DNA of 64,000 nt from Pontimicrobium aquaticum. GTDB lineage: Bacteria > Bacteroidota > Bacteroidia > Flavobacteriales > Flavobacteriaceae. Within the stretch, counting starts at the first letter, position 1. Every line of letters starts with the position of its first letter. Position numbers and translations under genes: made by a program. The notes beneath the pieces are model-generated. The model ran no database searches. It was not told where the DNA came from and saw only the letters and a list, made by a program, of their open reading frames with translations. Shown piece by piece: positions 25,997 to 54,968 of this stretch. The stretch spans positions 124,001-188,000 of the forward strand of contig NZ_SUPL01000003.1 in the NCBI RefSeq assembly GCF_005047595.1, in the 5' to 3' direction.

Positions 25997-27289
25997 ATGA
26001 GAAAACTTATATATATATACTCAGTTTTAATGTTAAGTTGCTCGCTTACTTTTGCGCAACAAACACCTGCTGACAAACAAACACAAGCCATCACAATAAC
26101 AGGAGCTACAATTCATGTTGGTGATGGTACAGTTATAGAACAAGGAACAGTCGTTTTTGAAAATGGAAAAATAACAGCTGTTGGAGATAGTAATTCAAAT
26201 ATCACAGCTAAAGGCAACGTTATTGATGCTTCAGGAAAACACATATATCCTGGTTTTATTGGGGCCAATACCAATTTAGGACTTGTAGAAGTTGATGCTG
26301 TTAATGCCAGTAATGATCAAGTTGAAATGGGAAGTATGATTCCTCATGTGAGAAGTTTAATTGCCTATAACGCAGAATCTAAAGTAGTAGAATCAATGCG
26401 ACCAAACGGTATTTTAACAGCTCAGGTATCACCTAACGGAGGGCGAATTTCAGGAACTTCTTCCATCATGCAGTTAGATGCTTGGAACTGGGAAGATGCA
26501 GTATTAAAAGCTGATGATGGTATTCATTTAAATTGGCCAAGTAGTTTTACCAGAGGCCGCTGGTGGTTAGGTGAACCTCCTGGGTTAAAACCTAATAGCA
26601 ATTATGGATCTCAAGTAAATGACGTGGTCAACTTTGTTAAAGAAAGCAAAGCCTATTTAAAAGGAAAACGCACTACCAAGAACATGCCGTTTGAAGCCAT
26701 GGAAGGCTTATTTGATGGATCTCAAAAATTATACGTTCATGTCAATGATGAAAAAGGTATTACTGACGCTGTTAACTTTGCTGTTGAAAATGGTATGAAA
26801 ATGGTCGTTATAGGAGGCTATCAAGCCTATACCGTTACTGGTTTATTAAAAAGTAATAATATTCCTGTATTGCTTGACCACACACATAGTTTACCTGCAA
26901 ACGAAGACCAAGATTATGATTTACCATACAAAAATCCAAAATTATTAGCTGACGCTGGTGTTCTAGTTGGTATTCATACAGGAAATAACTCTAACTTCCA
27001 AACGCGTAATTTACCATTTTATGCTGGACAAGTTGTTGGACAAGGTATGGGCAAAGAAGATGCTTTAAAACTAATTACATCAAACATCGCTAAAATATTA
27101 GGAATAGACAACCAATTAGGAACGATAGAAGTAGGTAAAAATGCCACACTTTTTGTTAGTGAAGGCGATGCTTTAGACATGAAAGGCAATCAATTAACCC
27201 ATGCTTTTATTGATGGTCGTGCTATTAGCTTAGAAACGCACCAAACTGAATTATGGAAACGCTACCATAATAAATACCAAGGACAATAA
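25997..27289 (+). CDS. Exported amidohydrolase-family protein, probably catalytically degenerate
   Basis: A 430-residue protein with a signal peptide (MRKLIYIYSVLMLSCSLTFAQ). It has the amidohydrolase N-terminal sandwich (GTVVFENGKITAVGD) and the C-terminal GTIEVGKNATLFV strand. At the site where active members read GFIDxHxH, this protein has GFIGANTNLGL, and later ligand regions read VIGGYQAY and GIHTGNNSN. It is likely a pseudoenzyme or scaffold partner of the preceding double amidohydrolase, with which it forms an operon. Its last 38 codons plus terminator recur 2,056 bp downstream. Confidence 0.88.
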   Translation: MRKLIYIYSVLMLSCSLTFAQQTPADKQTQAITITGATIHVGDGTVIEQGTVVFENGKITAVGDSNSNITAKGNVIDASGKHIYPGFIGANTNLGLVEVDAVNASNDQVEMGSMIPHVRSLIAYNAESKVVESMRPNGILTAQVSPNGGRISGTSSIMQLDAWNWEDAVLKADDGIHLNWPSSFTRGRWWLGEPPGLKPNSNYGSQVNDVVNFVKESKAYLKGKRTTKNMPFEAMEGLFDGSQKLYVHVNDEKGITDAVNFAVENGMKMVVIGGYQAYTVTGLLKSNNIPVLLDHTHSLPANEDQDYDLPYKNPKLLADAGVLVGIHTGNNSNFQTRNLPFYAGQVVGQGMGKEDALKLITSNIAKILGIDNQLGTIEVGKNATLFVSEGDALDMKGNQLTHAFIDGRAISLETHQTELWKRYHNKYQGQ

Positions 27290-27305
27290 ATTATTTTAAC
27301 CTCAC

Positions 27306-27342
27306 AAAAAAGGCGAGCTATAATATTTGGCTCGCCTTTTTT
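27306..27342. terminator. Intrinsic terminator of the amidohydrolase operon (copy 1)
   Basis: AAAAAAGGCGAGC and GCTCGCCTTTTTT form a 13-bp stem with an 11-nt loop. The stop codon of the convergent T9SS gene lies within its right edge. An identical copy is at 29362-29398. Confidence 0.88.
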
Positions 27343-29095
27343 ATTTGATTATTATTTTTTTTATCACAGCTCCTCCATCCAAATCATCTTTAATTTTAAC
27401 AAAATAAAGCCCTTCTACAAGATTTGATATATTAATCTGAATTTCTTTTAATTGAGTTTCTTTTTTCATAATCAATTTTCCTTGTACATCAAAAATCTCA
27501 ATATTCTTTTCACTATTATTTTTAAATTCAATATTTATATAATCACTTGCTGGGTTTGGATATAAATTTGAATCTAAAAAAGAATTCTTTCCAACTGATA
27601 ACCTTTCTTCAAACTCCGTTTGAAAAGTATTGGTAATTACTGGTTCGTTAAAATCAAAGTATATAGCTGCTGTATTTGGTATAATATCACCAACAGTAAA
27701 CCCTGCTTTTGGTTTAATTTTATAATATACAAACCCATGGCTTTCTGGTTCATTCATATCTTCACTTGGTAAATGAATATTATTAAAAGTCCAAGTAAGC
27801 TTTTTTCCGAGCCTATTCAAATTATTTGTATGACTAGAAGCTAATAATTGAAAGGTCGATTCATCTAATTCTGAGTCTAACTCATTTTCTATTCTAACGT
27901 TAATCGCATCTGCAGTACCAACATTTTGAAAACGAATGGTATAATATAAATAATCACTTTCGGTAAATTCATTAAATTGAATTTTGGGACCATGAGATTC
28001 CATAATATCATTTGGATCAAAAGAGCCTATCACAATTTCAGATAAATCGAAAGTGTTGTTATCTTGATTAAAATCAGCTCCAGTATAAACTGCTGAATTT
28101 GTTAATTTTGTATCTAAGCTTACTGATGTTGGCACATACATAGAAATATCTATTTCTTTTTCTTCTCCTACATTAAGATTATTAAAATTAAGAGTAAAAC
28201 CATTAGAGGTTGGTGTAACATTATCATTAGAATCAACATTAGAAACACTGTTAAATGTAAGCAACGAATCGTAAGCAAACTCAACAGTTCCAGAAGTCAC
28301 AGCCTCGGTTCCAGTATTTTTTACTATTAAATGATTAACATAATTAAACCCAGGTCTAGGGCTTGTATCTGAGTACAATAGGATTTCAATATCTTCACAA
28401 TAATCTTGAGAGTCTTGAGAGACTATTAAATCCAACTCTGTAATTGAATAACAGCCGGGGTAAATAAGGTAACGGTTATCAAATATGTTATAAGTTAATC
28501 TAGGGAATATTTTTTGTTGAAAAGCTACACTATTTGTATATGAGTTTTCGTCTAGACTATTAATATTGTTTTCTGCATCCTCTACACTTTCATGGTATGT
28601 AATAGAAACCAAACTTTGATCTAACCCAGATAATATCTCATCGTTTTTAAGTTGGAGCTTAAAAGTATTAAATCCATTATTATTGATATTACACATAGCT
28701 AAAGGAGACGGTTTATTAATGATTAAGGGAGGTAAAACAAATATTTCAGGATAGATATCATAAGTATACCCTGTACTTATCTCTATACGCCTTATCATTA
28801 CTGTTTCATCTGGATTAGTTGAATTAGTATAATTTATTGGATCTTCTATAGGAATCAAAGAAGATATTCCTGACTCTTTATTAAAATAGTAAAAATCAAA
28901 GTCATTTATATACTCATCTCCAACTATATATGATTCGACCATAGTAAGATCAAAAGTAGTTATTTCATCATAATCATCATCGCAAAAATAAAAAGGCCAA
29001 TAACCAGGTGGTGGAGGATTTTGAACTTCTGTTTGCCCATAAATAGTAGCCCAAGAAAACACAACTAATACAATAAATAATACTTCACGTTTCAT
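27341..29095 (-). CDS. T9SS type A sorting-domain surface protein (DUF7619-like)
   Basis: A 584-residue secreted protein. The signal peptide is MKREVLFIVLVVFSWATIYG. The middle region is beta-rich. A DUF7619-type module near residues 360-495 carries GSFDPNDI, YYTIRFQNVGTADA, LTWTFNNIHLP and IYFDFNEPVITN. The C-terminal tail (about 510-584) is a type A T9SS signal: LYPNPASDYINI, FDVQGKLI, NLVEGLYFVKI, ending KKIIIK. It is probably exported through T9SS and bound to the surface; ligand and role are unknown. It sits exactly between the two copies of an amidohydrolase 3' end, so it may be an insertion. Confidence 0.88.
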   Translation of the reverse strand: MKREVLFIVLVVFSWATIYGQTEVQNPPPPGYWPFYFCDDDYDEITTFDLTMVESYIVGDEYINDFDFYYFNKESGISSLIPIEDPINYTNSTNPDETVMIRRIEISTGYTYDIYPEIFVLPPLIINKPSPLAMCNINNNGFNTFKLQLKNDEILSGLDQSLVSITYHESVEDAENNINSLDENSYTNSVAFQQKIFPRLTYNIFDNRYLIYPGCYSITELDLIVSQDSQDYCEDIEILLYSDTSPRPGFNYVNHLIVKNTGTEAVTSGTVEFAYDSLLTFNSVSNVDSNDNVTPTSNGFTLNFNNLNVGEEKEIDISMYVPTSVSLDTKLTNSAVYTGADFNQDNNTFDLSEIVIGSFDPNDIMESHGPKIQFNEFTESDYLYYTIRFQNVGTADAINVRIENELDSELDESTFQLLASSHTNNLNRLGKKLTWTFNNIHLPSEDMNEPESHGFVYYKIKPKAGFTVGDIIPNTAAIYFDFNEPVITNTFQTEFEERLSVGKNSFLDSNLYPNPASDYINIEFKNNSEKNIEIFDVQGKLIMKKETQLKEIQINISNLVEGLYFVKIKDDLDGGAVIKKIIIK

Positions 29096-29115
29096 AAAAG
29101 TGCAACTTTGTCTTC

Positions 29116-29148
29116 CAAATGTAGGAATATTCTATCTTATAATAGCAA
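29116..29148 (-). promoter_or_regulatory. Promoter of the T9SS cargo gene
   Basis: On the minus strand, TTG (29146-29148), a 22-nt spacer and TACATTTG (29116-29123) fit the Bacteroidota consensus. The predicted start is about 14 nt before the ATG at 29095. Confidence 0.55.
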
Positions 29149-29218
29149 TAAAATTGTTGACTAGTTTAAAAAACCGTTAATTAAACAACCCTTTGATTAA
29201 AAAGTTGCATTACCAACT

Positions 29219-29346
29219 AAGGTGACACCTAGATATGAGAGGAAACCAACTTTCTCATGCGTTTATTGATGGTCGTGCTATAAGCTTAGAAACGCATCAA
29301 ACCAAATTATGGAAACGTTACCATAATAAATACCAAGGACAATAAA
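29219..29346 (+). pseudogene. C-terminal remnant of an amidohydrolase paralogue
   Basis: From GAT at 29232 to TAA at 29346 this stretch encodes the last 37 residues of the upstream 430-residue amidohydrolase with only three conservative changes (K/R, T/S, E/K). It has 14 nucleotide differences in 38 codons, mostly synonymous. From 29319 to 29402 it is identical to 27263-27346, terminator included. Weaker similarity with a one-base gap reaches back to about 29219. No start codon or upstream part is present, so it is a truncated gene end. The rest of the 305-nt gap 29096-29400 holds only the promoter of the T9SS gene. Confidence 0.85.
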
Positions 29347-29361
29347 TTATTTTAACCTCAC

Positions 29362-29398
29362 AAAAAAGGCGAGCTATAATATTTGGCTCGCCTTTTTT
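29362..29398. terminator. Intrinsic terminator (copy 2 of the amidohydrolase terminator)
   Basis: Identical 13-bp stem and loop to 27306-27342. It now serves the 3' side of the convergent DUF6503 gene, whose stop is at 29401. Confidence 0.85.
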
Positions 29399-29400
29399 AT

Positions 29401-30189
29401 TTATTTTACTATCATCGTGCTGTCTGGCACTTCAAACATGTCTTCGTTAGGTAAATCTTCCATGAGTTTTGCATTAACAAATTTAACCTCATTACGTACA
29501 TCTCCAATGTTTCCATTTTCATAATGATGCCATTGTAATACAGTTGGTAATACCAACCCATTAACGTCTTCCCAATTAGTATATCTTATAAGGCTAAACT
29601 TTTTTGCTTTCTCTTTTGAAAAATAAGTAACAGTATATGCCAACCATTCCATTTTATAAGTTTCAGGATGGTAGTACAAAATATATTCATCATCTGGAGA
29701 TTCTCCTACTCCAGACTCGTATGAAATTAATAAACCAGGATAAGACACACCTTCAAACTCTATAGGCTCAACTTCTGCATAATTAATACCATCATCACCT
29801 AGCACAAAAGGCATAGCATAGAAATAAAACATCAAATTGTAGAAAAACTTCGGGTTGGATTTATAGGCAACAGTATCTAAATTTTTTAGCCAAACATACT
29901 CACCATCAAAACCCAATAAATGATGCTCAGATGTTATTAACGATTTTCTGCTTTTTAAGGCAATATCGTATGTGTCATTTGTATTAGGCTTTTCAATTTC
30001 GTAGTACATACCTTCCATAGCATTCCAAGTATCAATACCTCCATGAGCATCAAAAACCTTTGCTATAGATTCAGGATAAATTGATGTTGTTACATTTAAC
30101 TCGGTTGCTTTATAATTTTCTATTTTTGGGTTTTGCTTACAAGAAACAAAAGCAATAAAAACCAATGTAATAAAGAGTGTTTTTTTCAT
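29401..30189 (-). CDS. DUF6503 lipoprotein
   Basis: A 262-residue predicted lipoprotein with a lipobox (AFVSCKQN, Cys near residue 17). The body is beta-rich with AHGGIDTWNAMEGMYYEI near 48-65, LLGFDGEYVWL, FYNLMFYFYAMPFVLGDDG, YILYYHPETYKMEWL and LVLPTVLQWHHYENG, which match the LolA/outer-membrane lipoprotein-like DUF6503 family. It may bind a hydrophobic ligand, but this is inference. It is convergent with the amidohydrolase remnant and divergent from the SpoU methyltransferase. Confidence 0.8.
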   Translation of the reverse strand: MKKTLFITLVFIAFVSCKQNPKIENYKATELNVTTSIYPESIAKVFDAHGGIDTWNAMEGMYYEIEKPNTNDTYDIALKSRKSLITSEHHLLGFDGEYVWLKNLDTVAYKSNPKFFYNLMFYFYAMPFVLGDDGINYAEVEPIEFEGVSYPGLLISYESGVGESPDDEYILYYHPETYKMEWLAYTVTYFSKEKAKKFSLIRYTNWEDVNGLVLPTVLQWHHYENGNIGDVRNEVKFVNAKLMEDLPNEDMFEVPDSTMIVK

Positions 30190-30265: not shown

Positions 30266-31072
30266 ATGGCTCAATATATTACAAGCACACAAAATTCATT
30301 AATCAAACAATTAGTTCAATTAAAAGAAAAATCTAGAAGTCGTAGAAATTCTGGACAATTTTTAATTGAAGGTCAACGTGAAATTGAATTAGCTTTGAAA
30401 GGAAACTACGTGTTGGAATCCATTTTGTTTCTCGATAAAATTATTTCAGGAGATAGTATAAATAAACAAATAAAAGCAATAGAAAATCAACCTGAGCTTA
30501 TTTCAATTTCTCAAGAAGTGTATCAAAAACTAGCATATCGTAAAACTACTGAAGGCGTATTAGCAGTAGCTAAATCGAAACCTTTAAGTTTAAACAAGCT
30601 TCATCTTAAAACCAAAACTCCATTAATTTTAGTTGCTGAAGCACCCGAAAAGCCTGGTAATATTGGAGCCTTATTACGTACTGCCGATGCTGCTAATGTT
30701 GATGCTGTAATTATTGCCAACCCAAAAACAGACATGTACAACCCAAATATTATTCGCTCTAGTGTTGGTTGTGTATTTACCAATCAGATAGCAACTGGCT
30801 CAACTGAAGATATCATTAACTTTTTAAAGGAAAACAATATTAATATTTATTGTGCCGCTTTACAAGCGTCGGTAGATTATCACACGCAAGACTATACTAG
30901 GGCAATAGCTATTGTTGTTGGTACTGAAGCAACAGGACTAAGTGATGAATGGCTGAACAACTCAACACAAAATATAATTATTCCTATGCAAGGTGACATT
31001 GATTCTATGAATGTATCGGTAGCCGCTGGAATTTTAATTTTTGAAGCTAAACGACAAAGACAATTTAACTAA
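30266..31072 (+). CDS. SpoU/TrmH-family RNA methyltransferase
   Basis: A 268-residue SPOUT methyltransferase that would 2'-O-methylate rRNA or tRNA with S-adenosylmethionine. An N-terminal substrate-binding domain (SRSRRNSGQFLIEGQREIEL, residues about 23-42) precedes the knotted catalytic domain. Its motifs are motif 1 EKPGNIGALLRTADAA (about 128-143), motif 2 IVVGTEATGLSDEW and motif 3 IPMQGDIDSMNVSVAAGI. The target base cannot be decided from sequence. Its stop overlaps the M48 protease start by one base (TAATG). Confidence 0.93.
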   Translation: MAQYITSTQNSLIKQLVQLKEKSRSRRNSGQFLIEGQREIELALKGNYVLESILFLDKIISGDSINKQIKAIENQPELISISQEVYQKLAYRKTTEGVLAVAKSKPLSLNKLHLKTKTPLILVAEAPEKPGNIGALLRTADAANVDAVIIANPKTDMYNPNIIRSSVGCVFTNQIATGSTEDIINFLKENNINIYCAALQASVDYHTQDYTRAIAIVVGTEATGLSDEWLNNSTQNIIIPMQGDIDSMNVSVAAGILIFEAKRQRQFN

Positions 31073-53428: not shown

Positions 53429-54968
53429 TAATGCTCCAAATATTATCTTTTGTAGTAATTCCTGATAAAATATTATTAACTGAGGTAATAGCTGTTAACA
53501 TAGAGTGATCTTGATTATTATACTTATGCATACCATTTCTACCTATTAAAAATAAGTTTTTAAATGTATCAGTGAATGTTTTTATCTCATCAAACCTATC
53601 ATATGTTCCAAAATACGCAGGATAAGCTTTTGGCACTTTTATAATAGTGCTGTCTAAAACAGCATCTTTATGTATTATATCAATCTTATGTAATTCTTCA
53701 ATAGCAAATTCAATGAATTTATCATCGTCCATTTCCCATAAATCGTCACCTTTATTACAAAAATACTCTAAACCAATCCACACTTTATCATCCTCTTTTA
53801 CTAGATATGGTGACCAATTATTAAATATTTGTAATCTACCAAGTTTCACATCACTTTCTTGAATATATATCCAATTATCAGAAATTAATTTTTTGTTTTT
53901 ATCAGTGATTTTTAGCTCATTAAGTAATAACCCAACCGTAATAAAATCTCTATATAACAAGCCTTGACCAACGTCTTTCACATTAGGCGGTACAATACTT
54001 CCAAAGGATTTAATTAAATGCTTAACTGGCATGCTTGAAAACACATAGTTGCCATTTAATATTTCTTTAGTTTTAGTAGTATTATTTGTATAACTAACTT
54101 CTGTAATTTTATTGTTTTCTGTTTTTAATCCAATAACTTTTGCGTTAAAAACAACTTCTCCTCCTTTATCAATAATTATTTTAGTAACTGTTTCCCATAG
54201 CTGTCCTGGACCTAGTTTTGGATACATAAACTGTTCTATCAAACTTGTTTCAGTACTTTCTTGACTAATAGATTTATCTTTTACAAATATGGCTTTTATA
54301 GCATGTAATATTGTTTTTGTAACAGAAAGTCCTTTAATACGTTGAGCTCCCCATTCTGATGAAATTTTAGAACAAGGCACTCCCCAAACTTTCTCGGTGT
54401 AATCTTTAAAAAAAGTTTCATACAATTCTTTTCCAAATCGGCTAATTAAAAAGTCTTCTAAAGAATCTATGTTTTTTGGTGGAAATATTTGAATTAACAT
54501 ATATGTCCATCCTATTTTCACAATTTTAAAAAAACCAAGTGATGCAATAGTATTCCAATTTAAGCTAATAGGATAGTTAAAAAATTTACGCATAAAGAAG
54601 ATTCTTGACAATCTACTTCTAATGAGCATCACACGATCGGTTTTCTCAGGATTTGGACCATTTTCACTTAGTTTTTGAGCAATTTGCTTTTGTAGATTAG
54701 CATCTTGAATATCTTTTTCGTCTTTTGAAGGCTGCCCTTGAATTGGCAAAATATGCTGCCACCAATCCATTACTACTTTAGATTTAGAGAAAAAACGATG
54801 CCCTCCAATATCTATTCTATTGCCTTTATAGACTTCAGTTCTAGAAATACCTCCAATTTTGTTAGACTGTTCTAACACAATAGGTTTAATATTGGTTCTG
54901 GTAACCAGCTCGTAAGCTGCTGTTAATCCTGCTGGTCCTGCACCAATAATGATTGCGGTTTCTTTCAA
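53397..54968 (-). CDS. FAD-dependent oxidoreductase of the UDP-galactopyranose mutase/protoporphyrinogen oxidase-like group
   Basis: A 523-residue flavoprotein. The dinucleotide motif [15 protein letters not shown] is at residues 7-21, [21 protein letters not shown] near 43-63, and [21 protein letters not shown] at the C-terminus. The long insert [25 protein letters not shown] resembles UDP-galactopyranose mutase-like enzymes that act on sugar nucleotides or lipid-linked sugars. The exact reaction is not determined. Its position between mazG and a glycosyltransferase supports a role in glycan building. Confidence 0.87.

Follow-up and report, generated by a model that had tools for sequence, protein, structure and literature searches.

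What does a gene enclosed by two direct repeats tell us of its own history, and need it be a recent arrival? The question is raised by a locus in a 64,000-nucleotide stretch of the Pontimicrobium aquaticum genome (contig NZ_SUPL01000003.1, positions 124,001 to 188,000; the window, whose own numbering is used here), where a gene for a type IX secretion system (T9SS) cargo protein lies between two copies of the 3′ end and terminator of an amidohydrolase gene, amidoB. The gene order is amidoA>, amidoB>, T9SS<, LolA-like<, rnaMT>, M48-like peptidase> (> forward, < reverse strand; rnaMT, RNA methyltransferase; the peptidase is named from sequence). An earlier sequence-only reading suggested that the terminator may be a seam at which the T9SS gene had been acquired. 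The explanation we favour, and consider fairly probable, is that the interval between amidoB and rnaMT was once duplicated in tandem, perhaps with two different alleles, that each copy then lost a different gene, and that the repeat is what remains of this.

The repeat pair and its divergence

The two copies, each of 173 bp, align without gaps and with 14 mismatches, all of which fall within the first 89 bp (27174-27262 versus 29230-29318), a placement that would arise at random with a probability of 5e-5. The remaining 84 bp (27263-27346 and 29319-29402) are without a difference, an identity reported earlier and confirmed by our alignment; they include the non-coding terminator sequence, and it is the adjoining coding sequence that has diverged. 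At the codon level there are 12 differences, three of which alter the amino acid (K/R, T/S and E/K), so that the earlier count of 14 differences with three amino acid changes stands while their description as uniformly conservative does not, the E/K change being a reversal of charge. The second copy is indeed truncated, as had been noted, and its character as a 3′ end left behind by a recombination event is supported; its homology to the amidohydrolase gene reaches further upstream than had been recognized, to 29219 in an nhmmer profile match (E 9.5e-26) and on visual inspection as far as about 29213, an extension that includes an in-frame stop.

The terminator hairpin has a predicted fold of -23 kcal/mol (z -6.8). 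A search of the organism's own genome (3.3 Mb, E up to 0.001) with the repeat returned the two copies and the reverse strand of the hairpin itself and nothing else, and a search for the hairpin pattern with up to three mismatches found only the two sites in the window; a dispersed terminator repeat is thereby ruled out, and the full-length paralogue of the second copy that the sequence-only reading proposed to look for was not found in this genome. Between the repeats there is no open reading frame (ORF) of at least 80 aa other than the T9SS gene, in which domain searches detected no integrase or transposase domain, and no dispersed repeat was found at the ends of the segment.

The two copies are identical at 100 of 114 positions, compared with 91-104 of 114 between copy 1 and four congeners and 96-103 of 114 between copy 2 and the same four, so their divergence is at the level seen between species and lies mainly at silent sites. 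In simulations that assume base frequencies and a transition bias, a copy 2 evolving neutrally since the duplication never reached so few as three amino acid changes (0/600), and only 1% of runs gave as few changes at first and second codon positions. When both copies were constrained, the corresponding fractions were 26% and 51% at a nonsynonymous acceptance of 0.1, and 3% and 18% at 0.2. Because the simulations disfavour a neutral copy 2, and with it purely neutral decay, the copies appear to have diverged mostly at a time when each was still a coding sequence, as would be the case for two alleles of different strains or after a later replacement of amidoB by transfer; no clear mosaic break was found in sliding identity along amidoA and amidoB.

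Gene order in the family and at the seam

Homologues of the T9SS gene (E up to 1e-60) were present in 31 of 397 family genomes, the organism's own included, and the closest is about 50% identical to the gene in the window. Regions were retrieved for 24 of the 30 other genomes, six with weaker matches being left out (G032, G046, G213, G330, G357 and G388); two are uninformative for gene order, L162 on a short contig and L172 lacking rnaMT. Fifteen of the 22 regions with both genes present the order LolA-like, T9SS, rnaMT, ten of them with amidoB upstream and five with DUF3810 and no amidoB; in six the T9SS gene adjoins rnaMT with no LolA-like match, and in one (G352) the order is swapped. Intergenic distances were measured over 24 Flavobacteriaceae loci (a set to which L030 and L186 were added and in which L022 replaces its twin L149), and in 22 of these the T9SS gene and rnaMT are directly divergent with a gap of 21-221 bp, the two exceptions, G352 and G401, both belonging to genus g174. 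Across the family, then, the T9SS gene has its regular place beside rnaMT, and its foreign acquisition was rejected on this synteny. The change concerns its position with respect to the LolA-like gene: the common arrangement is LolA-like< T9SS< rnaMT>, often preceded by amidoB>, and in the window, G352 and G401 the order is swapped with the strands unchanged. From its wide spread, the common order is presumably ancestral.

At the seam between the T9SS and LolA-like genes the upstream region of the T9SS gene is followed by a probable degraded 5′ end of rnaMT and then by the 3′ end of amidoB. Positions 29096-29188 align to the upstream region of the T9SS gene of L022, a related metagenome-assembled genome, and on into its rnaMT gene (94 bp, 76.6%), and when 29142-29207 was compared with 48 rnaMT 5′ ends the mean score lay above those of all 2000 dinucleotide shuffles. 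The pseudo-start, placed through the L022 alignment, lies about 47 bp from the T9SS start, and gaps of 41-49 bp occur in 9 of 22 relatives. Together these sequence comparisons lend moderate support to 29142-29205 being a degraded rnaMT 5′ end. Coordinates are collected in the table.

Features of the amidoB-rnaMT interval (window coordinates)
Feature	Position	Strand	Basis or remark
amidoB, intact amidohydrolase-family gene, 430 aa	25997..27289	+	ORF and domain searches
Repeat copy 1	27174..27346	+	last amidoB codons, terminator, last codon and stop of T9SS gene
Terminator hairpin copy 1	27306..27342	+	between convergent genes; fold and pattern search
T9SS cargo gene, 584 aa (DUF11, DUF7619, type A sorting domain)	27341..29095	-	adjoins rnaMT in relatives
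T9SS gene upstream region, conserved with L022	29096..29140	-	contains TACATTTG box, which we take to be a putative Bacteroidetes -7 motif
Probable rnaMT 5′ remnant (second rRNA methyltransferase copy)	29142..29205	+	start codon lost, frameshifted, by eye; right end approximate
Joint of rnaMT 5′ remnant and amidoB 3′ remnant	29206..29218	.	exact point approximate
amidoB 3′ remnant, truncated, 1-base deletion near left end	29219..29345	+	ends at copied stop codon
Repeat copy 2	29230..29402	+	repeat alignment
Terminator hairpin copy 2	29362..29398	+	repeat alignment and pattern search
LolA/LolB-like lipoprotein gene (DUF6503)	29401..30189	-	in G004 directly 3′ of amidoB terminator
rnaMT, SpoU-family RNA methyltransferase, intact	30266..31072	+	ORF and domain searches

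The C-terminus of amidoB is matched (E up to 1e-4) in 261 of the 397 family genomes, and two matches occur only in the organism's own genome and in G019. None of the 261 has a second full amidoB gene adjacent to the first, the arrangement that the sequence-only reading had named as pointing to a simple old deletion; more decayed scraps are beyond the reach of this search. A BLAST scan of 79 intervals running from amidoB or DUF3810 to rnaMT gave only matches of 12-26 bases as second copies, a result from an insensitive method with 26 intervals too short, which missed the remnants in G352, took the second copy in the window as the end of amidoB and can hide a truncated adjacent amidoB. The second match in G019 (G019:C1:3023017-3023160) is a full-length second amidohydrolase, its C-terminus 48% alike, far from the main locus.

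Congeners, and a parallel in genus g174

Five other genomes of the genus, one of them (G005) 86% complete, were compared, and none has a full-length match to the T9SS gene of the window. In G001 and G003 amidoB is followed directly by rnaMT, G004 and G005 have amidoB> LolA-like< rnaMT>, and G002 carries another T9SS gene between amidoB and rnaMT, so that the gene content of the interval varies among relatives. Relatives lacking the T9SS gene and having a single amidohydrolase-terminator junction, which the sequence-only reading suggested seeking, do exist (G001, G003 and G004, and in another genus G400). The interval of L022 (11288-18520), the only genome of its genus, holds three related lipoprotein-like genes, a LolA-like gene and two T9SS genes, one a homologue of the G002 gene (64%) and the other of the T9SS gene of the window (48%); this content favours differential loss from a gene-richer interval, with transfer as the alternative. 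The L022 lipoprotein block is bounded on both sides by terminators that are 93-97% alike over some 40 bp. Near rnaMT or amidoB in L013, L018, L026 and L030, a short gene (about 104 aa; in L018 called as 78 aa) that presumably resembles a GIY-YIG endonuclease comes and goes around the interval.

A second instance of the swap is found in g174, a genus represented by four genomes (G352, G401, G178 and G400). G352 and G401 have the order amidoB, LolA remnant, T9SS, rnaMT 5′ remnant, LolA-like, rnaMT, the rnaMT remnant of G401 being identified by eye. In G352 the LolA pseudogene scores 94 against a null maximum of 51 in 1000, the rnaMT 5′ remnant scores 52 against 43 in 1000, and the terminator and LolA 3′ end are repeated around the T9SS gene over 85 bp with 84 identities (99%), the rest of the remnant having diverged as in the window. 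The middle of this LolA remnant is closer to the LolA-like gene of G401 (229/274) than to that of its own genome (169/274). At the LolA end, the G401 remnant matches its own gene at 104/117, and G352 matches G401 at 38/63. Remnants of lost copies thus stand at the expected positions in all three genomes, those of LolA and rnaMT in G352 and G401 and those of amidoB (firm) and rnaMT (moderate) in the window. By eye, an inner loop of about 90 bp in the amidoB terminator of G352 looks inverted relative to G400, as if flipped between inverted arms (L165 6790-6935; L184 8395-8572, in reverse orientation).

In G178 the contig carrying the T9SS gene is 3.2 kb long and similar to the repeat region at its ends, so that the gene order assigned to this genome is a putative one. 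Its within-genome repeat is identical at 84 of 91 positions, and it gives no sign of homogenization, since these copies are no closer to one another than G352 is to G178 (82/85 and 83/85). Over four compared proteins G400 and G352 share 96-97% identity, and G400 presents a single amidoB-terminator-LolA junction, which is what recombination between the repeats would leave. No T9SS match was found in G400; an assembly gap could account for this, but the junction runs uninterrupted on a 601-kb contig. Loss of the T9SS gene in G400 would be the simpler reading, because G401, by identity the most diverged member of g174, has the swapped order; it draws on identities in place of a species tree of g174.

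Among 394 relatives of G352 that were searched, 17 gave a match, and all of these except G046 were among the regions read. In a tree of the C-terminal part of the T9SS protein (26 rows) the window pairs with L022, which has the common order (support 100/99); g174 is a group with 100/100 support, nested in a larger one (98/98) to which neither of the two belongs. The joints differ as well, the second copy beginning inside amidoB in the window and after the amidoB stop in G352. From the separation in the tree and the different joints, the swap probably arose at least twice.

Probable duplication and loss, and the alternatives

Starting from the common order, (amidoB>) LolA-like< T9SS< rnaMT>, the stretch that begins in the amidoB 3′ end and extends into the rnaMT 5′ end would have come to be present twice in tandem, creating a joint of the rnaMT 5′ end with the amidoB 3′ end. 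Loss of the LolA-like gene from the left copy and of the T9SS gene from the right would then yield the swapped order. We infer that the copies were different alleles, one of them probably brought in from another strain through a merodiploid state or a Campbell-type integration. The 84 identical bp may reflect later exchange from repeat to repeat, and a recent crossover inside the terminator would have left the same appearance in the window. A broader proposal, which we regard as speculative and unlikely, is that terminator hairpins at convergent gene ends are recurrent exchange points that keep duplicated ends identical through gene conversion while the adjoining remnants decay, permit the precise loss of an enclosed gene, and in this way make surface-protein genes between amidoB and rnaMT repeatedly change places or disappear.

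Several observations weigh against the scheme of duplication and reciprocal loss. A homoallelic duplication in which amidoB was replaced by transfer at a later time agrees with the data about equally well, and no donor allele was found, a close T9SS homologue being absent from the six genus genomes and the 397 family genomes. No genome keeping both full copies was present in the regions read, such an intermediate being expected to be short-lived, and the window showed no remnant of LolA. In G401 the two copies differ in their hairpin parts, so an identical terminator is no constant feature of such scars. The rnaMT remnant of the window is weak when taken by itself: the best single-target DNA score was reached by 4 of 2000 shuffles and that for L022 by 6 of 2000, a cruder shuffle test places the best score at the 99% point of the null (borderline), and protein scores were equalled by 121 of 1000 shuffles for the organism's own rnaMT and 23 of 1000 for that of L022. 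Of the 25574 placements of the L022 rnaMT 5′ end across the window, one at an unrelated site, 51951, scored higher (37 versus 29) and one at 53851 tied, and the rnaMT profile run over the window gives only 2.9 bits at the remnant, outside the expected phase. The remnant also appears more decayed than that of amidoB, a difference not predicted by a single joint event.

The strongest competitor, which we consider a serious possibility though somewhat short of an even chance, is transfer without an ancestral duplication, in which DNA with the order amidoB> T9SS< rnaMT> entered a resident amidoB> LolA< rnaMT>, by homology at the amidoB 3′ end and an illegitimate joint at the other (or as a circularized fragment), setting two alleles side by side. 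It would give an identical final structure, and both of its starting arrangements exist, the former without a LolA-like match in G234/L161 and the latter within the genus in G004 and G005. The mainly silent, between-species divergence of the copies agrees with it, as do the want of a full T9SS match in the congeners and the third-position GC content of the T9SS gene (GC3 17.6), the lowest of six genes compared (others 19.7-28.5). The donor, however, was not found, the closest T9SS homologue being only about 50% identical, and in g174 the LolA remnant adjoins the T9SS gene, so that there the doubled segment carried LolA. A T9SS gene that came in as foreign cargo, with the conserved terminator as its acquisition seam, would account for the identical terminators on either side, the absence of the gene from the five congeners and the variable interval; we nevertheless think it improbable, given the family-wide position of the gene beside rnaMT, the lack of any other sizeable ORF between the repeats and a terminator that is not dispersed. 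Least credible of all, to the point where we give it hardly any weight, is the decay of an ancient, once complete second amidoB down to its 3′ end: it would fit the truncation of copy 2 and the frameshift and stop found there, but the differences in copy 2 are mostly silent, unlike those of neutral decay, no adjacent second amidoB was found in relatives, and the swapped gene order would be left unexplained.

Among known processes, homology-facilitated illegitimate recombination, reportedly described by de Vries and Wackernagel in 2002, is said to give one homologous and one illegitimate joint; for the window it would be a candidate only, no donor having been found. Insertion with long target duplication, known for restriction-modification genes, likewise encloses a gene in lengthy direct repeats copied from adjoining sequence; in the window, by contrast, the enclosed gene has long been part of the neighbourhood, and the flanking gene on the other side, rnaMT, has probably left a scrap as well. 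Tandem duplication and random loss is best known from animal mitochondrial genomes and shares with our locus a change of order without a change of strand and pseudogene scraps at the expected places; here it would have acted on a bacterial chromosome, with copies that are apparently different alleles and with identity limited to the terminator end. Natural transformation can make merodiploid tandem duplications, in which incoming DNA and unequal crossing-over produce adjacent copies that can differ (PMC3784515). Those duplications span roughly 100 to 900 kb and arise from repeats in the chromosome, whereas the unit here would be of a few kb, with only a scar remaining. On duplication and random loss in bacterial gene order, 19 of 20 listed papers concern mitochondrial genomes. 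No title on this locus turned up for illegitimate recombination, differential loss in bacterial genomes, long target duplication, concerted evolution or the gene order of Flavobacteriaceae.

Changes of gene order by duplication and loss are usually inferred once their traces have vanished. The process is a known one, and its footprint is unusually clear at this locus, where the scraps, the exchanged gene order, a second case of independent origin and a relative without the gene are all legible and allow the steps to be put in sequence. The locus is also a warning against taking every gene enclosed by direct repeats for a recent acquisition.

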